Shown: one piece after another, positions 1,723-36,998 of the stretch
Position numbering within the stretch: position 1 is the stretch's first letter
Layout: each line of letters begins with the position of its first letter
Origin: Fibrobacter succinogenes
Lineage (GTDB): Bacteria > Fibrobacterota > Fibrobacteria > Fibrobacterales > Fibrobacteraceae
Length of the DNA: 64,000 nt
NCBI GenBank assembly: GCA_902762305.1
Contig: CACWNW010000001.1
Span: forward strand, 62,001-126,000
Reading direction: 5' to 3'
The notes under the pieces: generated by a model
What the model was told of the DNA's origin: nothing
The model's database searches: none
The model's input: only the letters and a program-made list of their open reading frames with translations
Position numbers and translations under genes: made by a program

Positions 1723-3128
1723 CCAAATATACGTGCGTACAGCCCGGGCGCAAATTTCTCGATATAGCCCATCGCGAGGATAAAGACAATCACCGCGGGC
1801 AATATCCACTTGAAATAGAAGCAGAGGACGGGATTCGTCGGGAAATGGATTCCCTTGCCGAAATTCGCCTCGGTGAGAAAGTTCTTCTGGTTCCAACCGA
1901 ATCTGTGGTTACAGAAAAGCACAAACACGAGTGCACCCAGCGGCAACAACGTATTGGACACGAGGAAATCTTCCAAGTCGAGCACGCAACTGCCTGCACC
2001 GAAGGGTTCAAAGCCCGAAAGCACATTGAACCCGAGCGCACACGGAAGTGAGAGGAGCACGATGGCGATAAAATTCCAACGCACTGCACGGCTGCGTTCC
2101 ACCCCGTGGGCATCAATCCAGTAGGCAATGATGTTCTCGAACACGGCGACAAGCGTAGAGAGCGCCGCAAACGAGAGGAACAGGAAGAACGCAGCACCGC
2201 AAATACGGCCCGCGGGCATCTGCGCAAACACGTTCGGGAGCGTCGCAAAAATAAGGCCAGGACCGGCACCGGGTTCCACGCCAAACGCAAAGCAGCTCGG
2301 GATAATGATGAGGCCAGCAAGGAGCGCTACCGCCGTATCGAGCAGGCAGATGTTCGCCGCTTCCTTCGGGAGACTATGCGTCTTGCCGATGTAGCTTCCG
2401 AAAATGGTCATGGAGCCAATACCCAGGCTGAGCGTAAAGAAACTCTGGCCAAGCGCGGCAAACACGACCTTGCCAATACCCGCCTCCTTCAGTTTCGCGA
2501 AGTCGGGCTTGAGGTAGAATTCCAGACCGTCGCCCGCACCCGGTAGCGTAAGCACGCGCACCACGAGCAAGAGCATAATAATAAGCAAAGCGGACATCAT
2601 CACCTTAGTGACACCTTCGACGCCCTTCCTCAAGCCAAGTGCCACGATCGAAAGTCCCAGCGATACAGCGACAACCATCCAGAAACACAGAAGCGGACCG
2701 TTGCCGAGCATCTCGCCGAATGCAGCGCCCACCTGCGCAGGATCCATTCCCATGAGGTCGCCCATGGTCACCATGCGGTAGAAGTAATAGAGCATCCAGC
2801 CCGTGACCGTCGTGTAGAACATCATGAGCAGGTAGTTGCCAGCAATCATCGGGATGCCCGCGTAATGCCACTTGTGGCCAGGCTTTTCAAGCACTTTGAA
2901 GGCCCTGCCTACGCCCCGCTGGGAGGCGCGACCCACGGTAAATTCCATCACCAGGATCGGGAAACCGAAAATCGCAAGAAACAGCAGATAAATTAAAATA
3001 AACGCAGCACCGCCGTACTGCCCCGTAATAAACGGGAACCGCCACACGTTACCCAGGCCGATGGCACAGCCTGCAGAAACTAGAATGAACCCTAACCTAG
3101 AGCCAAAGGCCTCGCGATTGTCATTCAT
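1719..3128 (-). CDS. Sodium:neurotransmitter symporter family transporter (SNF/NSS, LeuT fold)
   Basis: 469-residue integral membrane protein of the neurotransmitter:sodium symporter family, whose bacterial members take up amino acids with Na+. The N-terminus has the family signature (FGSRLGFILVSAGCAIGLGN, then VWRFPF), the unwound TM1 region that binds Na+ and substrate in LeuT. About eleven to twelve hydrophobic segments follow. Substrate cannot be predicted. The start codon overlaps the stop of the upstream lipoprotein gene (TAATG on the minus strand), so the two are probably translationally coupled. The 3' end overlaps topB by 4 nt, the two TAG stops sharing the palindrome CTAG. Confidence 0.9.
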   Translation of the reverse strand: MNDNREAFGSRLGFILVSAGCAIGLGNVWRFPFITGQYGGAAFILIYLLFLAIFGFPILVMEFTVGRASQRGVGRAFKVLEKPGHKWHYAGIPMIAGNYLLMMFYTTVTGWMLYYFYRMVTMGDLMGMDPAQVGAAFGEMLGNGPLLCFWMVVAVSLGLSIVALGLRKGVEGVTKVMMSALLIIMLLLVVRVLTLPGAGDGLEFYLKPDFAKLKEAGIGKVVFAALGQSFFTLSLGIGSMTIFGSYIGKTHSLPKEAANICLLDTAVALLAGLIIIPSCFAFGVEPGAGPGLIFATLPNVFAQMPAGRICGAAFFLFLSFAALSTLVAVFENIIAYWIDAHGVERSRAVRWNFIAIVLLSLPCALGFNVLSGFEPFGAGSCVLDLEDFLVSNTLLPLGALVFVLFCNHRFGWNQKNFLTEANFGKGIHFPTNPVLCFYFKWILPAVIVFILAMGYIEKFAPGLYARIFG

Positions 3129-4168
3129 TACGAATTCCCGTCAAGATAGGCGTATTCTCCGTACAAGCCGTTTACCGGGTAATAGGTACGGCTGCCGTCA
3201 GCGGCAATCACGATGGCAAGGCCCTGAGCAAAGCCACACCACTGTTTGAGACTTTCGTAAGCCTTGAAGTCGACAGCCAGCTTGGTGCAGTACGCCGTAA
3301 GGGGTGCCACCACCATGTCATGAGAAATCATGATGCCGATGCGGTACTCCGGCGGGAAAGCCGGAAGAATGTGCTGCGTCAACAGGGCAACGCTCGTTTC
3401 CGTAAGGTCGTTGAACGCATCCGTGTAGAGGCCCTTGTACATCCAGCTAGCAAACGTCTGAAGCTGGTTCGTTGCAAAATCCTCTTCGGCATGGAGAGCG
3501 AGCAGCGAATCGTTTTTCACATATCCGCCACCAGCAAGCTTGGGCACGATTGTGCTTACGAACTGCGTCGTATCGCCCCCGCGGCCAGCATAGATGAACA
3601 AAGCCGTCTGACGGGTACGAACAAAGTCGGAATGCGCATAGAAAATCGGATCCGTCATATTGACAGAAGCGATAGCCGCACCAAGAGATGCAGCCTGGTC
3701 CTTTCCTGTCATATGGAGCTGGGTTTCACGACCGGTACCGCTACCGCGACGCGCATGGCGCAACACGAAAATCACACGGTCGGTAGACTGAAGAGATGCA
3801 AGCAAGTCGGCCACCGGAATAAGCGTACCATTTGCAGAACTGGCCTCGACAAAAGCGGCATCCTTCGCAATTTCTTCTTCGAGAGTACCAGCCTGGTACC
3901 CCTCGTTCGAAGCCGAGGAGCCCGGAACTGTAGTGCTGCTTTCGGGCGTGACCGCTATAGACGAAGACGATACCTCGGGGTTCGCTCCCTGCGATTCAGG
4001 AGCAACGGCCGAAGATGTCGGGACCGAGGAACTCAAGGTCTGATTGCCGGCACTGGAGTCCGGACCTACCGGCGACAAGCCATTCGAATTTCCACTGTCA
4101 CAGGCTGAAAACAAAATGGCTGTAGCAGTCGCAAAGCCGAGAATAAATTTCTGGAACGATTTTTTCAT
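3128..4168 (-). CDS. Histidine phosphatase family lipoprotein
   Basis: 346-residue lipoprotein. The signal peptide MKKSFQKFILGFATATAILF is followed by lipobox FSAC (Cys23), then a long Ser/Pro-rich linker to about residue 90. The globular part has histidine phosphatase superfamily features: FVLRHARR (catalytic His138 with flanking Arg), SDFVRTRQTA (second Arg region), and a late SHDMVVAPLTAY (second His). This suggests a phosphomonoesterase or related fold displayed on an outer-envelope membrane; the substrate is unknown. The start at 4168 was chosen because it begins the signal peptide; an upstream in-frame extension would place 23 residues before it. A paralogue lies at 62479-63573. It probably shares a transcript with the symporter gene. 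Confidence 0.8.
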   Translation of the reverse strand: MKKSFQKFILGFATATAILFSACDSGNSNGLSPVGPDSSAGNQTLSSSVPTSSAVAPESQGANPEVSSSSIAVTPESSTTVPGSSASNEGYQAGTLEEEIAKDAAFVEASSANGTLIPVADLLASLQSTDRVIFVLRHARRGSGTGRETQLHMTGKDQAASLGAAIASVNMTDPIFYAHSDFVRTRQTALFIYAGRGGDTTQFVSTIVPKLAGGGYVKNDSLLALHAEEDFATNQLQTFASWMYKGLYTDAFNDLTETSVALLTQHILPAFPPEYRIGIMISHDMVVAPLTAYCTKLAVDFKAYESLKQWCGFAQGLAIVIAADGSRTYYPVNGLYGEYAYLDGNS

Positions 4169-26894: not shown

Positions 26895-27920
26895 TTACTG
26901 GGCTATCCACAAATCGGGATGCCACATGGAAACGCTGTCCGAATGAATAAACCGGTACACTTTTGACTGAGCATAATCAATCAGAGCAAGGTCCAGGTTT
27001 CCTACCTCCAACGTCGTCAGAGCGCCAATCTGCACCAGAATACCGGGCAGCCATTCCACATGGTCAAAGACCTGCATATCGGGCGCCATAATGGCCTTCA
27101 AGATATTCCCGGCTTCATCTTCGTAAAAGAGGTACTGGTGCCAAACACCTATAGTATCATGAGTCAATTCGCGACCCAAATCTCCTGCCGTTTCCAGAAA
27201 AGAAATCAAATTCGAGGAATCCCTGGACACCGACACATTGCAGACCTGCTGCTCGTTATAACGGTCGATGATGGTGTCTTCATCATCTTTCGCCCAATGG
27301 AAATACAAGTGCGAAGCTCCTGTAACGGCAAAGGAGAAATCGTAAGCGAAGCCCCCGTTATAACTGCGGCCAAATATTTTTTTCGGGGTGCCGAACTTAT
27401 TTCCTTTATACGAAACCTGCCATGTCGCCGACGAAGGCCATTTCTCGCCAATGTTATCTCCGGCGTAATCGACATAGGTTATCACAGTATCGCCATCAGG
27501 CAAAACATACCACCTAGGAATTGCCGCGCTTTCCACATCCAGCGAATCAATTTCTTCGGGATTTTCCAGATTCACGACATAAAGGCGCGAACCAAACGGA
27601 GCTCCCTCGTAAGCAGTGCAAAAAGCAATCTTGCCCCCATCCGGAGAAAACACCGGATGGAACGCATTCCACCCTTCGGCCAGTACCGTTTTTGTTACGG
27701 AGGTGCCGGTATAGTCCAGCAAGGCAAGATAGTTTCCATCGTCGTTGCGGAACACAACCTTAAACTTGCTGCTTCCTAAAACCTTCTCTATGGAACGCGA
27801 ATTCATCTGCAGCTTAAAATGCTTCAGGTCTCGATTCCCGTCATCCGACCCCGATGCGACATCGGGCCCGCACGCAGCAAGCAAAAATAATGCAGGAACG
27901 ATTAACCATTTAAGCGACAT
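26895..27920 (-). CDS. TolB-like beta-propeller lipoprotein (short TIGR02171 relative)
   Basis: 341 residues. Signal MSLKWLIVPALFLLAAC with lipobox LAAC (Cys17). The rest is a WD40/PD40-type propeller (FHPVFSPDGGKIAFCT, IPRWYVLPDGDTVITYVD) matching the middle domain of the two TIGR02171 proteins at 28774 and 34242 almost motif for motif, including ATWQVSYKGNKFGTPKKIF and the terminal MWHPDLWI. It lacks the FGE-like and SGNH-like domains of those proteins. AAGGAATC precedes the ATG, with TATATT about 37 nt upstream. It is divergent from the methyltransferase gene. Confidence 0.75.
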   Translation of the reverse strand: MSLKWLIVPALFLLAACGPDVASGSDDGNRDLKHFKLQMNSRSIEKVLGSSKFKVVFRNDDGNYLALLDYTGTSVTKTVLAEGWNAFHPVFSPDGGKIAFCTAYEGAPFGSRLYVVNLENPEEIDSLDVESAAIPRWYVLPDGDTVITYVDYAGDNIGEKWPSSATWQVSYKGNKFGTPKKIFGRSYNGGFAYDFSFAVTGASHLYFHWAKDDEDTIIDRYNEQQVCNVSVSRDSSNLISFLETAGDLGRELTHDTIGVWHQYLFYEDEAGNILKAIMAPDMQVFDHVEWLPGILVQIGALTTLEVGNLDLALIDYAQSKVYRFIHSDSVSMWHPDLWIAQ

Positions 27921-28773: not shown

Positions 28774-31491
28774 ATGAAAACCCGATACCTCCTATTCTTA
28801 TTGCCGTGTTTTCTTCTCACTATCAGCTGTTCCAATAGTGAGCTTTACGCCTTCGCCGAGAACACTTCCATCACGGGCGACTTTTCCAAAGAATTCGTCA
28901 AGATAAAAGCCGAAGACAAGTCCGTCGAAATCAAGGATATAAAGACGGAGAACGATACCACCGAAGAAAAATCCATAAAGGTCACTTTCACTTACAACTT
29001 TTACATCGAAAAGCACGAGGTCACCTGCAAGGAATACTTGCAGTTCCGGAAAAACAGCGATTGCGAAAATGATTCGCTGCCGGTAACGAACGTCTCCTAC
29101 ATAGACGCCATTCTCTACGCCAACGAAAAAAGCAAATCCGAAGGTTACGATACCGCCTATTCCTACAAGTCCGTCTCTTGCAACGAGAACAACTGTACTC
29201 AAATCGAAGGCCTCTCGTTCCAGCCCAGTGTCAACGCATACCGCCTCCCCACCGAGGCCGAATGGATTTTAGTGGCGAAGAACGGCTGGAACACAAAAAA
29301 CAGCTGGAACGCAAGCAACGCCAAGTCCTCCCCGCACCCCATATGCAGCAACGGCCAAAACAAGTTCGGCGTCTGCGACATGGAGGGAAACGTATCCGAA
29401 TGGGCGAACGACTGGCTCAGTACAATACTAGACACCTCATTGACAAACTTTATCGGAGCAAACAGCGGCGGTTCTCTCGGTGAACGCGTAATCAAAGGCG
29501 GGAATTACAACTCCGCCACAAAGAACATAAGCCTTCATCTCCGCGGAGACGTCTACACCGTAACTTCATCTACAACCAGCGACTACCTCGGATTCCGACT
29601 CGCCTTCGGGAAAATTCCCGAAGCCCTATGGTACGACGAAAAGATGACATCGTCTGATCTCCCGACCTACCGCATTGCAAGCATCGGCAGCATCCGCAGC
29701 AAAACAGGAACCTTCAAGACCAGGGTCGCCTTCCGGCACGACATTACCGGGAATCTCGCCTACATCGATTACTCAAGCATCGTTCTCGCCCCGCAAGAGA
29801 TTTTCGACACCATAGATTCCTACCATCCGGAAATTTCTCCAGATGGCAGTCGAATTGCCTTCTGTACTAGCCCCGAAGGCGTAAACGCAAAATCAAAGGT
29901 TTACGTGCGTGATTTGAACAAGATTGGGGATAATTTAACCATGCTGGATGTCGATAACGCATCCATTCCCCGCTGGAAGGTCCTGAATTCTAAGGACACC
30001 GTCATCATCTACGTGACATCGGCCAGCAACAACAAATACGAACCTTCGTTCAAGAGCAAGTCCACATGGATGGTCCCGTTCTCTAACGGGAAATTCGGAG
30101 AACCGAAAAAACTCTTTGACGGAGCCTACCATGGTGGAGTCGATGACGACCTGAATTTTGCAGTAACGGGTTCCACGCTCCTGCGAGCGAGAACATCCAG
30201 CGGCAAGGACACCATCTGGTACAACTCCGAACAGGCTTGCAATGCCAGCTTGTCGAAAGACGGAAGCAAGCGGACGCTGTTCCTCGATTTCGGCAGCAAA
30301 GAAGGGCAAAAATTTGCGGGAAAGGATTACGGGATTCACGAAAGAATCCTAGTCATGGACAGCACCGGAAAGCTGATTCAGGCCATCCCCGCACCCAAGG
30401 GCTATTCGTTCGACCATACCGAATGGGTTTCCGAAAACCTGATTACAGCAATGCTCACCACACCAAACGGGACACACGAAAAATTAGTACTGGTCGATCT
30501 CGCCGATTCCTCGATTCTGGAACTTCTCAAGGGTGACGAACTGTGGCATCCGAGCATATGGATTGACGAAGTCAAGGGCACCAAGTCCCCGCTCGATCCC
30601 GATAGCGCAGCGGCCTACTGGAACGACAACGACAACGATCTTCTTGCTACAAAAATGACGGCATTCTGGGCCCTAAGCGATTCCATCGAAGTCATCGCCC
30701 TTGGGTCCTCGCGAGTCAGCCAGGGATTCTCCCCGATTATGATATCTTACGGATACACGTTCAACATGGCAACCATTCCAAACGACATGGATGTCAATCA
30801 GTACCTGTTGAGCAACTACATCTTCCCGCATTGCAAGAAACTCAAATTCATCGTGCTCTCCCTCGATCTGGACCTGTGGTCAGAAAAACCCGGAGTCAAC
30901 GTCAGCAAGAACACGCTTTCGATACCTGGATTCATCTACGACAAAAACCATGACTTCTGGAAAAAAGGCAATGTGTCGTATATTATAGAAGCCAGCAAGC
31001 AACGGATTTCGGAACAAGCGTTTTTGCAGGGATTCTACGACTCCCAAGGAGCAATCAAGAGAAGGGAAGAAAATTCCTGGACCTTCGGGGGCTACAACCC
31101 CAACATAATCCTGTACGATTCCACCTGGAGCGACAACAACGTGTACAGATTCGCGCTTCAGCAGCTCGAAGAAATCATCGTTGCAGCGAAGGAAAGGGAC
31201 GTCAAGATAATTGGGGTCGTATTCCCGCAAAGTCCAGAATATGCAAGAACCGGAGCTTTCGGTAGGCACGGCATGAGGAGGAGCACAGCAATAAAAATCC
31301 TCGACGAGATTGCCCAGCTCGACTCCACCTATTCAAACTTCACATTCATGGACGAGAACAAGATGGGCGCGCACGACTACGAAGACTGGCTCGCTTACGA
31401 TTACGACCACCTGAATGTGTTTGGATCGTTCATAATCTCCAAACGCATCGATTCGGTAATGGTCTCTACGGCTACTTCGAAAGCGCCTTAA
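28774..31491 (+). CDS. TIGR02171-type lipoprotein: FGE-like, TolB propeller and SGNH-like domains
   Basis: 905 residues. Lipobox LTISC (Cys19). Residues about 60-290 have the formylglycine-generating-enzyme (SUMF1) fold: HEVTCKEYLQF, YRLPTEAEWILVAK, CDMEGNVSEWANDW and RVIKGGNY, but the two catalytic cysteines of true FGE are absent, so it is probably a binding domain. Residues about 300-600 form a PD40/TolB-like propeller (YHPEISPDGSRIAFCT). Residues about 620-905 look like an SGNH hydrolase: IEVIALGSSRVSQG at the nucleophile position and DYDHLNVFGS as the D-x-x-H block. Function unknown. The start at 28774 gives the lipoprotein signal. It overlaps the convergent gene at 31472 by 20 nt. Confidence 0.8.
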   Translation: MKTRYLLFLLPCFLLTISCSNSELYAFAENTSITGDFSKEFVKIKAEDKSVEIKDIKTENDTTEEKSIKVTFTYNFYIEKHEVTCKEYLQFRKNSDCENDSLPVTNVSYIDAILYANEKSKSEGYDTAYSYKSVSCNENNCTQIEGLSFQPSVNAYRLPTEAEWILVAKNGWNTKNSWNASNAKSSPHPICSNGQNKFGVCDMEGNVSEWANDWLSTILDTSLTNFIGANSGGSLGERVIKGGNYNSATKNISLHLRGDVYTVTSSTTSDYLGFRLAFGKIPEALWYDEKMTSSDLPTYRIASIGSIRSKTGTFKTRVAFRHDITGNLAYIDYSSIVLAPQEIFDTIDSYHPEISPDGSRIAFCTSPEGVNAKSKVYVRDLNKIGDNLTMLDVDNASIPRWKVLNSKDTVIIYVTSASNNKYEPSFKSKSTWMVPFSNGKFGEPKKLFDGAYHGGVDDDLNFAVTGSTLLRARTSSGKDTIWYNSEQACNASLSKDGSKRTLFLDFGSKEGQKFAGKDYGIHERILVMDSTGKLIQAIPAPKGYSFDHTEWVSENLITAMLTTPNGTHEKLVLVDLADSSILELLKGDELWHPSIWIDEVKGTKSPLDPDSAAAYWNDNDNDLLATKMTAFWALSDSIEVIALGSSRVSQGFSPIMISYGYTFNMATIPNDMDVNQYLLSNYIFPHCKKLKFIVLSLDLDLWSEKPGVNVSKNTLSIPGFIYDKNHDFWKKGNVSYIIEASKQRISEQAFLQGFYDSQGAIKRREENSWTFGGYNPNIILYDSTWSDNNVYRFALQQLEEIIVAAKERDVKIIGVVFPQSPEYARTGAFGRHGMRRSTAIKILDEIAQLDSTYSNFTFMDENKMGAHDYEDWLAYDYDHLNVFGSFIISKRIDSVMVSTATSKAP

Positions 31492-32671
31492 CAGCTTCGG
31501 TCAGGCGGTCAATTGCCTGAATGAGTTCATCCATCTTGGCTTCGCTCACGCCAGCAGCAACGGCAGCAGTTGCAGCCTGGGCCGCAGTTTCGACAGCCTT
31601 CACAGGAGTTTCCTTCACGGGGAGCTTGCCGAACCAGATATCGGGCCAGCGGTCATTACCGGTATGGTACGTAATGCGGGTTGCGGTTTCCACCGGTTCG
31701 CCAATCTTCCAGATATAAAGTTCGTAGTCGAAGATATCGTGGTCGTGGCCCTTGTCAGTCGCACCCCACACGAGCCACTTTCCATCGGGAGAAAGGCGCG
31801 GGAAGTATTCATGGCTGCGGCGGCCCGGCAAATCCATGAGCTTCACGTTCTTCGGGATGCCGAAGAAGCCGACCTTCTCGATTTGCTTGCCATCCTTGGC
31901 AGAGAACCACAGGATTTCGCTCGGAGCGGCAGTACCGCCGTTACCCGTCGGGTTCACACGGTATATCTTGCTGCCGTCAAAGTTCCAGTCAATCTGGCAG
32001 CCGTCACCGGACTTGGTCCACTGGGACTTTTCCAAGTCCCACACACCCGTCTCGCGCATGGAGCCGCGCAGCGTAATCGCCACATGCTTGCCATCGGGGC
32101 TCATGTTCGGTTCCTGCAAAATCACGCCGGACTTGTTGAACGCCTTTTCGCCATCGAGAACCATCTTCTCGGCCTTGCTCGAAAGGTCCATCGTAAAGAC
32201 TTTCCCTGCGCGGCTGAACACGATGGACTTGCCATCGGGCCTCCATGTGCCCCATGTGGCATTGTCCACCACCTTGCGCTCGTTCTCGCCCGAAATATCA
32301 ACCATCCACAGGTCCCACTTTTCAGGATAGTTCGCATCGTTTTCCGGAACCCAGCCGCCCTTGCTGCGGTTGAAGAGCACCGTGGAACCATCCGGAGAAA
32401 TCCTCGGGAACCAGTCCACGTTGTCACCCTTCGTAAGGGCACGCGCATTCGTGCCGTCGGCGTTCATAATCCAGATATCGTGATGGCTGTTTGCACGGCT
32501 TGTCGCCCAGACAACCGCACCTTCGAGTTTACCCTTGAGGGCAGAAAGCGCCTTCTGTTCATCGGCGGTCGGGTCGACTGCCGCACCCGTCGGGGCACCC
32601 TGCTGGGCAAAAACGGCAGACGCAGATGCCACCAGCATCAAGCTAAACAGGGGTTTGAAAAAATTCTTCAT
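31472..32671 (-). CDS. Exported TolB-like beta-propeller protein
   Basis: 399 residues with signal peptide MKNFFKPLFSLMLVASASAVFA. Several PD40 blades are visible (DIWIMNADGTNARALT, WFPRISPDGSTVLFNR, LQEPNMSPDGKHVAIT, EYFPRLSPDGKWLVWG), then an Ala-rich linker and a short coiled-coil C-terminus (MDELIQAIDRLTEAVKALSK). It may bind polysaccharide or a partner in the periplasm or on the surface. GAGGAAG lies 4 nt before the ATG. It follows the GH8 gene by 18 nt and is likely cotranscribed. Its 3' end overlaps the TIGR02171 gene by 20 nt. Confidence 0.75.
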   Translation of the reverse strand: MKNFFKPLFSLMLVASASAVFAQQGAPTGAAVDPTADEQKALSALKGKLEGAVVWATSRANSHHDIWIMNADGTNARALTKGDNVDWFPRISPDGSTVLFNRSKGGWVPENDANYPEKWDLWMVDISGENERKVVDNATWGTWRPDGKSIVFSRAGKVFTMDLSSKAEKMVLDGEKAFNKSGVILQEPNMSPDGKHVAITLRGSMRETGVWDLEKSQWTKSGDGCQIDWNFDGSKIYRVNPTGNGGTAAPSEILWFSAKDGKQIEKVGFFGIPKNVKLMDLPGRRSHEYFPRLSPDGKWLVWGATDKGHDHDIFDYELYIWKIGEPVETATRITYHTGNDRWPDIWFGKLPVKETPVKAVETAAQAATAAVAAGVSEAKMDELIQAIDRLTEAVKALSK

Positions 32672-32689
32672 AAAACTTCCTCACTAGTT

Positions 32690-34177
32690 TTAGCGCACGT
32701 TTATCCTGCGCACGATTGTCTCACCAGATGTCTTAACCTTCACCACATACAGCCCGCTCGGAATTCCCTCGAGGGAGATTTTCACGGAGCCGCCGACCTT
32801 GCCTTCCCACAGGGTACCGACAGTAGCACCCGATACGGAGAACAGGTCTACACGCGCCGATCCTGTGCCAGAAACTTCAAGCGTACGCCCCCGCAAATGG
32901 ATTGCAGGTACGACAGGCATGCGACCCTGCGCAATGGCAATTGTCGAACTGGAACTTCGCGGGCCAACGACACTGCTGGAGCTTTCGGGCCCGACAGCGC
33001 TGGAACTCGATTCCACGGCAGAACTTGAACTCTGCGGTGCGGGAGGATCCATGAAGTTCGGCATATTGCCCGAAACCAAAAGGCCACAAAGTACTTTCAA
33101 GGACTGCTCGAAATATGCTTCTTCACCCAGAGAAACAGCCTCACTCCAAAATTCGTCCAGTTTACCCTGACGCGAAGCATCCGTAACCAACGAGGTCATC
33201 AGCGTTGCGACAAACGTGCTGTTATGTGCCGCCCAGCCTTCGGCACTGCCATTACGGTTGATATTGCCACGAATATCCTTCGCAGCCTTGCTGCTCACCC
33301 AAGTCCCGAGTTTATCGAGCATCGTCTTGGCTTTCGATTCACCGAACCAGTAGAAGTCCTGCGCCAAGCGCCACGGAGTGCGGGCAGCATCGTAACCATA
33401 GTTTCCATCCAGACCCTTTCCTTTAGCATCGGACCAGTTGTCGAAAAGGCCCGTGGAATATTCCGCAGAGTTCGCCTCCAGCAAGGCATAGTTGGCATTC
33501 ATCGCAGTCGTATTCCAGAACTCGGCATTTTCCGTATCCACCTTGGCAAAGAGTCGGTAGTAGGCAGGTGCGATGTACGAGGGGTTCTTCTTGTCGTTCC
33601 AGGCATCGCCCGGCTTATGGAGCCCGTTTTCTTCGAACTCATACTGCTTCACATTCTTCAAGAGAGTGCGAGCCTCGGTCAAGTACTTCTCGTCGCCGAA
33701 CTGGTACGATGCCATAATCAAGGCAGCCGCGACATCCATTTCGGCATCGGTCGCCGCATTGGCCTTGTTGTTCGACGGGTTCAATCCGCCAAACGACCAG
33801 TTCATGAGTCCATGCTCGTTGACACCCGCCTTGTAAAAGGCCCACAACTTATCGAACTGGGTCTGGTAACTCGTCGTGTTGTCGCTGAAGTAGACCATCA
33901 TCAGCATGCCGTAACCGATTCCTTCGGAGACGAAGGTATTGCTGCCATGGTCCTTTTCAATTGCGGCGTATTTTTCGTTTTCCTTGTACTTGTCCCTCAA
34001 GTAGTAATCAAACGCAGCCTTCAACTGGGTCGCCGCTTCGGCCTGGTTCGAAAGAACAACGCCATTTCCGCCATAGTTGGAGCTCTGCGGGAACGGGAAA
34101 TTAACCGCCGCCTGGGATAATCCGAAAGCGAGCAGCCCCCCAAAAAACACTTTTGTCACATAATTCATAGGCATCAT
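32690..34177 (-). CDS. GH8 endo-beta-1,4-glucanase with C-terminal sorting domain
   Basis: Secreted 495-residue cellulase. Signal peptide to about residue 24; GH8 (alpha/alpha)6 barrel from about 30 to 380. The proton donor Glu85 lies in FVSEGIGYGML, the GH8 signature is AATDAEMDVAAALIMASYQF with Asp144, and YGYDAARTPWRLAQD contributes further active-site residues. A Ser-rich linker and a C-terminal beta domain (VDLFSVSGATVGTL, IPSGLYVVKVKTSG) follow, similar to type IX secretion sorting domains. Chitosanase and xylanase activities also occur in GH8; endoglucanase is inferred from the organism. Start 34177 or 34168. Confidence 0.9.
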   Translation of the reverse strand: MMPMNYVTKVFFGGLLAFGLSQAAVNFPFPQSSNYGGNGVVLSNQAEAATQLKAAFDYYLRDKYKENEKYAAIEKDHGSNTFVSEGIGYGMLMMVYFSDNTTSYQTQFDKLWAFYKAGVNEHGLMNWSFGGLNPSNNKANAATDAEMDVAAALIMASYQFGDEKYLTEARTLLKNVKQYEFEENGLHKPGDAWNDKKNPSYIAPAYYRLFAKVDTENAEFWNTTAMNANYALLEANSAEYSTGLFDNWSDAKGKGLDGNYGYDAARTPWRLAQDFYWFGESKAKTMLDKLGTWVSSKAAKDIRGNINRNGSAEGWAAHNSTFVATLMTSLVTDASRQGKLDEFWSEAVSLGEEAYFEQSLKVLCGLLVSGNMPNFMDPPAPQSSSSAVESSSSAVGPESSSSVVGPRSSSSTIAIAQGRMPVVPAIHLRGRTLEVSGTGSARVDLFSVSGATVGTLWEGKVGGSVKISLEGIPSGLYVVKVKTSGETIVRRINVR

Positions 34178-34241
34178 TCTTTACACCAAATAAATAGGTT
34201 CATCCTAGTAAAAGATAGTTCATTACAGTCCAAAACAAAAA

Positions 34242-36998
34242 TTATTTCAATGTGTCTAATACCGAAACCAAGCGTGAAGTCATCTGCTCCGCACCCTTGT
34301 AGCTCAAATGATCACGATTTTGAGCCATTTCGTCGGTATAATCGTGATTTCCCATCTTATTCTCATCCATCAAGACAAAATTGGGTTTAGCCTTGGCCAG
34401 CGAATCCAGGCGGGCAATTTTCTTGAGAGCCACGCTACGCTGCAGTCCGTACAGGCCGAACGAGCCAGTATTCCTGTACTGCGGAGCCTGGGGAAATATA
34501 ATCCCAATTACATAGGCTCCCTTCTCCGAGGCTATATCCACAATGTCCATCAGGTCGTCAATTCGGGCATCCAGACATGCGTTTTCCTTTTCCGAGAAAA
34601 CGGAATCCATCAGGATTTCGATGGCTTCAGCCCCCCATCCGCGCGACGGAGGGTACAGGCCTCCCCTCTCCGAAAAGCTATTCGTCTCTTCGAAAGAAGC
34701 TGGGAACGCATTTTCGACAGCCTCGACAAAACCCTTGGGTACACCATCTTTCCAGAAACCATGGTTGGCATCGTAAACGTAGCCCGGGCCGCCAAGAAAC
34801 GCCAAAGCCAAGCGATTATCGGCACAATGCCAGCCATCCAAATCGATAGAGACAGCAATAGCTTTCAAATTTTGGGGATGGTTCAGCGCATAATTCTTGA
34901 TAAAGTAAAAATCTCTCGACGGTTCGATGTTGGTGACACCGAAATTGAGCATTTCCCATTCAGGATAAAGTTCCGGATTTACGCCCATTTCCATCCTGGA
35001 ACTGCCAGCAAGAAACACCTTGGTAACCCCAAGCCTCTTCCAGAACTTTTCCAGCTTGATACGGAAACGACCCTGATCCAACTCGTCATTATCAGAAAGG
35101 TAAGCGCCGGCACTATCCAAATCGAGCAGAGAGCCATCATCTGGCAAGACAACTGCTTTTGCCCACAGGGACGGATGCCACAATTCATCGCCTTCCAAGA
35201 GGTCAATTACCGAGCTGTCTGCAAAATTCACCAGGACAATCTTCTGATGCGCACCACCCGCATTCGTAAGCGTGGCAACAGCCAAATTCCTGCCCGATAC
35301 CCACTCGCTATGGTCGAAAAAATAACCGGCAGGCGAAGCAACCGACTGCACCAACTTTCCGGTGCTGTCCACGACAAGCAGGCGTTCGTGCGTCCCATAA
35401 TCTTCCCCGACGTACTTGCGGCCAGCCTTTCCACCGAAATCGAGGAACAGCGTGCGCTTGCTGCCATCCTTCGCGAGCGATGCATTGCAGGCCTGTGCGC
35501 TGTCGTACCAGACCGTATCGCGGGCATTCGCCATCACGTTCAAACCGGAATCCGCCACGCGGGCACGTAAAAGTCTAGCACCGGATACGGCAAGTGTCCC
35601 ATCTTCGCTGATGCCGCCATGGTACGCGCCGTCAAAAAGTTTTTCGGGTTTTCCGAAGGCTCCGTTCGCAAAGCGCACCTGCCACGTGGAGGTCGCCCTG
35701 AAAGCAACATCGTCCATGTTGTTGCCCGCATCGCTCACGTAGACAATCACCGTATCTCCGTTTTCGAGCACGCGCCAGCGCGGGATTGCGGCTCTTTCCA
35801 CATCAAGCTTCACGAGGTTCGTTCCCTCCGCATTCAAATCGCGCACATACAACGCCGACTTTCCCGAAACACCCTCGAGACCGGTGCAGAAAGCAACTTT
35901 TTCGCCATCCGGGGAAATTTCCGGGTGGTACACATCAAGCGTATCGGCAATTTCAACAACCGACATGGCCCCGTTCAAATAATCCTTGTAAGCCAGGTTT
36001 CCCGTAACATCGTTGCGAAACGCCAACTTCATCTTATACGTCCTAGTCAAGGCACGTAAAGTCGAAGAATTTGCAATCGGCACAATTTGCGATGTCTTCA
36101 CCATGCCGTTACGATCCATCCATACCGCATCGGGAATGCGGCCGAAAGCAAGACGGAAGCCGACATAGTCTGCACGGGTCGAAGACGTCACCGTATATAT
36201 GTCCCCGCGACCATAGAGCGTAACGGAAGCAGCCAGGTTCCTGTAGCTGCCGCCCTTCACGACACGTTCGCCAATCGAGCCTCCATCTGGAACGCCAACA
36301 TAATTCGTTACCGTAGTATCGCGGAAAAGGCCCATCCAGTCGTTCACCCATTCCATGGCATTCCCCGCCATATCGCAAAGGCCTTCACCGTTTCCTGTAG
36401 CCGAGCAGACCTCATGTAGTTGGTAGTCCGAGTTTTCGGCATTCCAGCCTTTAGCCGGATTCCATCCCGCATTTGCCGCCAGTACCCATTCCGCTTCCGT
36501 CGGAATGCGGTAGGCATTGACTTCAGGGTGGAAAGCATATCCTTCCAGGCCAGAACAATGGCCTTCGGAATCAAACTTTATCGAAGAATACGTATATGCC
36601 GTATCGAAGTTTTCGGACTTACTGCGTTCATTCGCAAACAGGACAATATCGTAAAACGAAACATTCGTCGCAGGGATATTTCCATTTTCACAGGCAAGAG
36701 CAAGCCCCATAAACGGGTGCATCAGCGAATCGAACTCGGCACATGTCACCTCATGGCGCCCGATAAAAAAATCATACCCGAATTTCGCCTTCATTTCTGG
36801 GCGCTCGTTGTTCCGGGCTTGAGCATTGTCCGTTCCAAGAACCACCGCCGAATTGGTTGCCGAAATCAGCATCATTCCCGAAAGCGTATCCGGCTTTATG
36901 TTTGTTTCCGAAACTCCCTGCGGAGACCCGGTTCCTGAATTGGAACAGGCGACCAGCCCAAGTAACAGCAACAAAACAAAGAGTCGTTCAAAATTCAT
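34242..36998 (-). CDS. TIGR02171-type lipoprotein: FGE-like, TolB propeller and SGNH-like domains
   Basis: 918 residues. Signal MNFERLFVLLLLLGLVAC with lipobox LVAC (Cys18). Same architecture as the 28774 protein: FGE/SUMF1-like domain (HEVTCAEFDSLM, YRIPTEAEWVLAANAGW, CDMAGNAMEWVNDW, RVVKGGSYRN), propeller (YHPEISPDGEKVAFCT, DELWHPSLW) and SGNH-like domain (KVFLAGSSRMEMG, QNRDHLSYKGAEQ near the end). The catalytic FGE cysteines are again missing. The start at 36998 begins the signal peptide; a longer in-frame start at 37211 would overlap the divergent TM2 gene. Pairwise the two TIGR02171 proteins look clearly homologous over their full length. Confidence 0.8.
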   Translation of the reverse strand: MNFERLFVLLLLLGLVACSNSGTGSPQGVSETNIKPDTLSGMMLISATNSAVVLGTDNAQARNNERPEMKAKFGYDFFIGRHEVTCAEFDSLMHPFMGLALACENGNIPATNVSFYDIVLFANERSKSENFDTAYTYSSIKFDSEGHCSGLEGYAFHPEVNAYRIPTEAEWVLAANAGWNPAKGWNAENSDYQLHEVCSATGNGEGLCDMAGNAMEWVNDWMGLFRDTTVTNYVGVPDGGSIGERVVKGGSYRNLAASVTLYGRGDIYTVTSSTRADYVGFRLAFGRIPDAVWMDRNGMVKTSQIVPIANSSTLRALTRTYKMKLAFRNDVTGNLAYKDYLNGAMSVVEIADTLDVYHPEISPDGEKVAFCTGLEGVSGKSALYVRDLNAEGTNLVKLDVERAAIPRWRVLENGDTVIVYVSDAGNNMDDVAFRATSTWQVRFANGAFGKPEKLFDGAYHGGISEDGTLAVSGARLLRARVADSGLNVMANARDTVWYDSAQACNASLAKDGSKRTLFLDFGGKAGRKYVGEDYGTHERLLVVDSTGKLVQSVASPAGYFFDHSEWVSGRNLAVATLTNAGGAHQKIVLVNFADSSVIDLLEGDELWHPSLWAKAVVLPDDGSLLDLDSAGAYLSDNDELDQGRFRIKLEKFWKRLGVTKVFLAGSSRMEMGVNPELYPEWEMLNFGVTNIEPSRDFYFIKNYALNHPQNLKAIAVSIDLDGWHCADNRLALAFLGGPGYVYDANHGFWKDGVPKGFVEAVENAFPASFEETNSFSERGGLYPPSRGWGAEAIEILMDSVFSEKENACLDARIDDLMDIVDIASEKGAYVIGIIFPQAPQYRNTGSFGLYGLQRSVALKKIARLDSLAKAKPNFVLMDENKMGNHDYTDEMAQNRDHLSYKGAEQMTSRLVSVLDTLK

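Follow-up and report, generated by a model that had tools for sequence, protein, structure and literature searches.

Fibrobacter is a plant-fibre-digesting gut bacterium that attacks lignocellulose without cellulosomes. Among the described systems with which the present locus can be compared, PorK has an FGE-like fold in which the cysteines are absent and which serves as a docking hub (PMC12421860), while several accepted SGNH families lack the block III Asn and many SGNH esterases of family CE2 are thought to work by a Ser–His dyad (PMC9487903). In F. succinogenes S85, the GH8 protein FSU_3149 was less abundant on cellulose (PMC6851124), so that induction by cellulose is not suggested. The locus described here, located in a window of 64,000 nucleotides of an F. 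succinogenes genome (the whole stretch of DNA that was analysed), encodes proteins of TIGR02171, a known yet uncharacterised family. Our literature search found no paper naming TIGR02171, and the literature on Fibrobacter with FGE or SGNH yielded nothing concerning its proteins.

Two TIGR02171 Lipoproteins and Their Locus

Two genes of the window encode full-length TIGR02171 lipoproteins, here called protein 1 and protein 2, and both scored far above the curated NCBIfam cut-off of 544.35 bits, which upholds the positions and family membership given for them in a preliminary description of this DNA. That description had overlooked a third relative of the family on the minus strand.

28774..31491, plus strand: protein 1 (P0001, 905 aa), full-length TIGR02171 lipoprotein, NCBIfam 1087.9 bits
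28828..28830, plus strand: lipobox Cys19 of protein 1, Cys in 40/40 homologues
34242..36998, minus strand: protein 2 (P0002, 918 aa), full-length TIGR02171 lipoprotein, NCBIfam 1237 bits
36945..36947, minus strand: lipobox Cys18 of protein 2, Cys in 40/40 homologues
26895..27920, minus strand: propeller-only lipoprotein (P0005, 341 aa), third TIGR02171 relative, profile positions 291–609, E 1.4e-75, below the cut-off

The two full-length proteins, which were 45% identical overall, covered positions 3–908 (protein 1) and 4–912 (protein 2) of the 912 in the TIGR02171 profile. The lipobox Cys did not vary among the 40 homologues; given this invariant residue and the link of the locus to a T9SS-tailed GH8 enzyme, the proteins may be located on the outer-membrane surface. 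Another propeller-only gene related to TIGR02171 was found on contig C2 of the same genome (L057).

The two genes enclose one for GH8 and one for a TolB-like protein, a flanking arrangement that had been claimed before and that the Pfam matches confirmed.

31472..32671, minus strand: TolB-like protein with a PD40 propeller (P0003, 399 aa) and a signal-like sequence at the N-terminus, PF07676 E 6.2e-15
32690..34177, minus strand: GH8 glycoside hydrolase (P0004, 495 aa), PF01270 E 1.1e-28
32696..32881, minus strand: T9SS C-terminal sorting domain of the GH8 protein (residues 433–494), TIGR04183 30.2 bits, cut-off 23

The genes for protein 2, GH8 and the TolB-like protein are consecutive on the minus strand, and the short gaps between them (64 and 18 bases) suggest that they are probably co-transcribed; promoter and terminator scans returned site numbers no higher than in shuffles. 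In the Fibrobacter arrays whose GH8 and TolB-like partners fell inside the fetched stretch, two to six tandem TIGR02171 genes were followed by GH8 and then by the TolB-like gene, all on one strand, and the inverted first copy seen in the window recurred with the same layout in two related genomes (L227, L228). The TolB-like gene was present in 62 of the 80 genus genomes at 79–96% identity; at least 35 of these 62 genes had a listed TIGR02171 gene no more than 15 kb away, as did at least 32 of the 51 contigs carrying GH8. The 13 genomes of the genus that had no strong match to protein 1 also lacked the TolB-like gene (13/13), a joint absence that may reflect clade membership. Full-length TIGR02171 proteins and the TolB-like gene were jointly absent from G073, G074, G088 and other genomes of the genus, which kept the T9SS.

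Paralogs in the Genome and the Phylum

This genome contained 10 TIGR02171 matches above the cut-off, plus partial relatives. One of the 10 genes is cut by a contig end and apparently split over two contigs, since the copy on contig C12 (genome G000, L053) lacks its C-terminus and contig C42 (L058) ends in a matching, overlapping C-terminal piece. Across the phylum, the family was detected in 134 of 167 genomes at E values up to 1e-20, in 86 of them above the cut-off, and the named relatives belonged to Fibrobacter and other Fibrobacterota. In two genomes (G098:C2:110042-115534 and G120:C59), two neighbouring copies occupied one open frame of about 1841–1843 aa, possibly through in-frame fusion or read-through. 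The other paralogs of this genome are found next to glycosyltransferase genes or housekeeping genes instead of hemicellulase clusters, which weighs against the function favoured below. One paralog (L050) is preceded by glycosyltransferase-like genes and followed by a CotH-like lipoprotein and a lipoprotein resembling the Fibrobacter major paralogous domain (1735–3969 and 3–1670, both minus strand), the names of the two lipoproteins being read from sequence. An MBOAT partnership in this genome was considered and rejected, as its two MBOAT genes are situated elsewhere, one of them beside a GDSL/SGNH-like neighbour of its own.

Predicted SGNH Fold of the C-Terminal Domain

The C-terminal domains, referred to below as tips, are located as follows.

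30586..31461, plus strand: predicted SGNH-fold domain of protein 1 (residues 605–896), model m4df3cb3da7fd, pLDDT 85
34254..35126, minus strand: predicted SGNH-fold domain of protein 2 (residues 625–915), modelled in the full-length protein and homologous to the protein 1 domain

When folded alone with 42 sequences, the tip of protein 1 gave a model (pLDDT 85.1, pTM 0.88) with the five-stranded alpha/beta/alpha SGNH fold (strands 44–47, 66–68, 96–100, 215–220 and 260–264). The structure search, which covered the protein 1 tip alone, returned DltD as the best Foldseek match (E 2.6e-5, Z 13.8, 250 residues), and the same domain matched platelet-activating-factor acetylhydrolase (Z 14.2), sialate O-acetylesterase (Z 13.6) and, less closely, a CE2 enzyme (Z 11.6). 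Sequence families were less informative: among 27 C-terminal domains, Pfam gave no SGNH family and no DUF1574 (PF07611) above the gathering score, DUF1574 appeared as a weak Pfam match in an intermediate relative only, and a profile of the C-terminal domain run against PDB sequences returned chance-level matches only. The same profile picked up DUF1574/SGNH-type proteins of distant Fibrobacterota, and for three of the four DUF1574 matches of the phylum, the gene immediately upstream encodes an MBOAT acyltransferase. Pfam provides no assignment, and the SGNH identity is based on the predicted fold together with this profile link; the earlier suggestion that the domain is of SGNH type is backed by the predicted fold and by the invariant Ser and His described below.

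The DUF1574/SGNH-type genes directly 3′ of AlgI/DltB-like MBOAT genes (L186, the same gene as L193 and L199; L197; L198) form apparent acyltransferase pairs in distant Fibrobacterota, and at least two of them are distant relatives of the TIGR02171 tip. A further tip relative, a minus-strand frame of 422 aa (L185), stands alone without FGE or propeller domain and has a true GDSR block I and an NFDH block V.

These relationships bear on the substrate. The main rival to a plant-polymer substrate is that the tip acts on the cell's own envelope glycans, which it would acylate or deacylate in the manner of DltD, PatB or AlgX. DltD heads the Foldseek list for the tip, by sequence the tip comes closest to DUF1574/SGNH proteins, which mostly sit beside MBOAT acyltransferase genes, and one paralog adjoins glycosyltransferase genes. 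However, the stretches fetched around the TIGR02171 genes of this genome contained no MBOAT gene, and one of the two MBOAT genes elsewhere has a GDSL/SGNH-like neighbour of its own; moreover, a multicopy, diversified set is a poor fit to one housekeeping polymer, and a secreted GH8 is encoded at the locus. We consider this role rather unlikely, and a putative substrate among plant polymers remains the reading that we follow.

Predicted Active-Site Residues of the Tips

Residues expected to form the active site were assessed in a set of 203 unique C-terminal domains, of which 197 could be aligned at these positions; on average, the aligned domains were about 35–40% identical.

30709..30711, plus strand: predicted nucleophile Ser646 of protein 1 (second Ser of GSSR), Ser in 197/197
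31399..31410, plus strand: block V D876-Y-D-H879 of protein 1, His in 197/197
34998..35000, minus strand: predicted nucleophile Ser667 of protein 2, Ser in 197/197 aligned domains
34308..34319, minus strand: block V N894-R-D-H897 of protein 2, Asn at the expected catalytic Asp

The block I Ser (the second of GSS), which sits at the start of the helix following strand 44–47 in the model of the protein 1 tip, and the block V His were each found in 197/197 domains. Both proteins had been credited with GSSR and D-x-x-H motifs; the former was present in both, and the latter in protein 1 (DYDH) and not in protein 2 (NRDH). Consequently, a full Ser–His–Asp set can be read from the sequence of protein 1 only. 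The position three residues before the His was occupied by Asp in 114 and by Asn in 81 of the 197 domains (Asp or Asn in 195/197), with at least 17 changes between the two on a FastTree tree, and 6/197 domains had no acid at either position −3 or −1. The block III Asn (GxND) was absent, strand 3 bearing sequences of the LDLD or SPDF type, and the presumed block II Gly position varied among A, G, S and T. Orthologs of protein 1 retained DYDH, and dN/dS values of about 0.06–0.20 in all three domains of this protein, where synonymous change could be estimated, indicated purifying selection. An exchange of the acid between positions −3 and −1 was also considered and dropped, as 11 independent pairs showed no correlated change and the other site was mostly unchanged.

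Some of these observations would agree with tips that are pseudo-enzymes, that is, ligand-binding modules with the fold but no useful catalysis, in which Asn in place of Asp marks the loss. The frequency of Asn at position −3 (81/197), its repeated toggling on the tree, the missing block III Asn and the six domains without acid point in this direction. Against it, Ser and His are fixed despite the low average identity of the domains, and the near-constant Asp or Asn at position −3 argues for a retained hydrogen-bond role. In addition, many CE2 esterases manage without the Asp (PMC9487903), a precedent by which its absence does not exclude activity of the TIGR02171 tip. We regard loss of catalysis as improbable, and the tips are treated below as putative Ser–His enzymes.

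FGE-Fold and Propeller Domains

Upstream of the tip, each protein carries two further domains.

28894..29616, plus strand: FGE-fold domain of protein 1 (residues 41–281), PF03781 E 3.8e-25
29671..30564, plus strand: TolB-type beta-propeller of protein 1 (residues 300–597), homologous model, TolB Z 22.3
36129..36878, minus strand: FGE-fold domain of protein 2 (residues 41–290), PF03781 E 7.5e-25
35160..36080, minus strand: TolB-type propeller of protein 2 (residues 307–613), TolB Z 22.3

The predicted structure of mature protein 2 (mdf0dcb47008f) had a mean pLDDT of 84.9. Its FGE domain matched TvpA (Z 24.9), PvdO (Z 20.8), human and bacterial FGE (Z about 18.5–19.2) and PorK (Z 18.3), and the fold of the corresponding domain of protein 1 was read from this homologous model. 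In both proteins, the stretch corresponding to the catalytic-Cys segment of FGE reads GFRL, and among 40 homologues it was GFRL in 39 and GFRI in 1. Because GFRL replaces the catalytic-Cys motif, the first domain of TIGR02171 is not an active FGE. The Pfam match, this motif and the predicted fold confirmed the FGE fold without catalytic cysteines that had been proposed, and the predicted structure likewise agreed with the proposed TolB-like propeller (Z 22.3 to TolB, rmsd 3.4, 261 residues). Since the FGE fold resembles TvpA as well as the docking fold of PorK, it does not point specifically to the lectin-like use that had been suggested.

A place for TIGR02171 proteins in the type IX secretion apparatus, as structural or docking components like PorK or GldK, is very improbable. 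The PorK fold match, GldK as the best other NCBIfam equivalog for the FGE domain and the T9SS tail on the GH8 partner would point to it, but the GldK score was 36 bits, with the cut-off at 350, a better GldK-like match is found elsewhere in the genome (C41, 90.7 bits), and G073, G074 and G088, which lack full-length TIGR02171, keep SprA and 11–19 T9SS-tailed proteins, making a T9SS-core role unlikely.

Probable Recombination at the Propeller/SGNH Junction

The domains differed in how their identities were distributed among paralogs. Among 136 full-length TIGR02171 proteins, 155 pairs had propellers at least 75% identical, and in 56 of these pairs the SGNH domains were at most 45% identical; the reverse pattern (tips at least 65%, propellers at most 62%) was found in no pair of this set. 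A second comparison covered 74 proteins of 20 arrays, chosen for being tandem. Array neighbours had propellers up to 95% identical, with a dS of about 0.5, and the tips of those neighbours were about 38–40% identical as proteins and about 50% at the nucleotide level. The change occurs at residue ~600, the junction between propeller and SGNH domain, where nucleotide identity falls from about 90% to 30–60%. Furthermore, 11 of the 74 array proteins had a propeller nearer to that of a neighbour in the same genome and a tip nearer to a protein of another genome. Synonymous divergence that is unequal across the junction is hard to obtain by protein-level selection alone, and the break is most simply explained by recombination, in the form of gene conversion or an exchange of cassettes. 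The alternative of rapid tip divergence following a recent duplication was rejected, because tips with about 50% nucleotide identity do not match an upstream dS of about 0.5; it is also contradicted by tip counterparts in other genomes that are 51–89% identical.

Proteins 1 and 2 were 48% identical in the FGE domain, 60% in the propeller and 34% in the SGNH domain, and are old paralogs without recent conversion between them. Compared with its positional counterparts, protein 2 was 72–81% identical in the propeller and 41–42% in the SGNH domain, and so displays the contrast between propeller and tip described above. We see an even chance that the arrays work as chassis and cassette, with recombination at the junction homogenising or exchanging the anchoring two-thirds of the protein while old, divergent tips of the Ser–His ester-enzyme kind are kept. 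If so, a fibre degrader would diversify the specificity of its envelope esterases with the docking parts unaltered.

Proposed Function

Taken together, we favour, with some reserve, a reading in which these proteins are interchangeable lipoprotein chassis bearing diversified Ser–His acyl-ester enzyme tips. The chassis would consist of the catalytically dead FGE fold and the TolB-type propeller on a lipid-anchored envelope protein. By analogy with PorK and TolB, the two domains are probably protein-docking parts that would dock to locus partners, and the chassis perhaps holds the tip near one shared at the locus, either the TolB-like protein or the secreted GH8. For the tip, the modelled fold suggests a putative SGNH-type activity, either hydrolysis or transfer of acyl esters, in which the invariant Ser and His would be used and the third triad position may be filled by Asp, as in protein 1, or by Asn, as in protein 2. 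Recombination between tandem copies would keep the chassis alike and the tips different, thereby providing enzymes of varied specificity on one mount. The putative substrates are O-acyl glycans, most likely plant hemicellulose or pectin; a plant polymer is plausible given the organism and the GH8 linkage.

As far as our analysis reaches, the new elements are the predicted SGNH assignment with its affinity to DltD and DUF1574, the conservation of gene order at the locus, the Asp/Asn polymorphism next to a Ser and a His that never vary, and the recombination that leaves a constant chassis and a variable tip. A modular multi-copy set of probable acyl-ester enzymes tied to a secreted GH8 offers candidates for stripping ester groups that shield cellulose, and with one standard holder the cell may be able to display a range of related enzymes. 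Toggling between Asp and Asn next to a fixed Ser and His also constitutes a natural test of the importance of the SGNH acid.

Comparison with Known Systems

The GH8 protein of the window resembles FSU_3149 of strain S85 in size and T9SS tail, and may be its counterpart. With CE2 and other SGNH carbohydrate acetylesterases, in which a Ser–His mechanism without the block V Asp is known (PMC9487903), the TIGR02171 tip may share such a mechanism where Asn replaces the Asp; in contrast to them, it has neither a Pfam SGNH match nor the block III Asn, and its activity is putative. PorK, GldK, GldJ and Treponema TvpA carry the FGE fold without cysteines, as TIGR02171 does, whereas the FGE domain of TIGR02171 belongs to the conserved parts of the protein and is not hypervariable. 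Finally, DltD, DUF1574 and MBOAT-associated SGNH proteins have in common with the TIGR02171 tip an SGNH core with a D-x-D-H or N-x-D-H block V. The TIGR02171 tip differs from this group in that the examined loci contain no MBOAT partner and in that it is fused to an FGE domain and a propeller in a lipoprotein.
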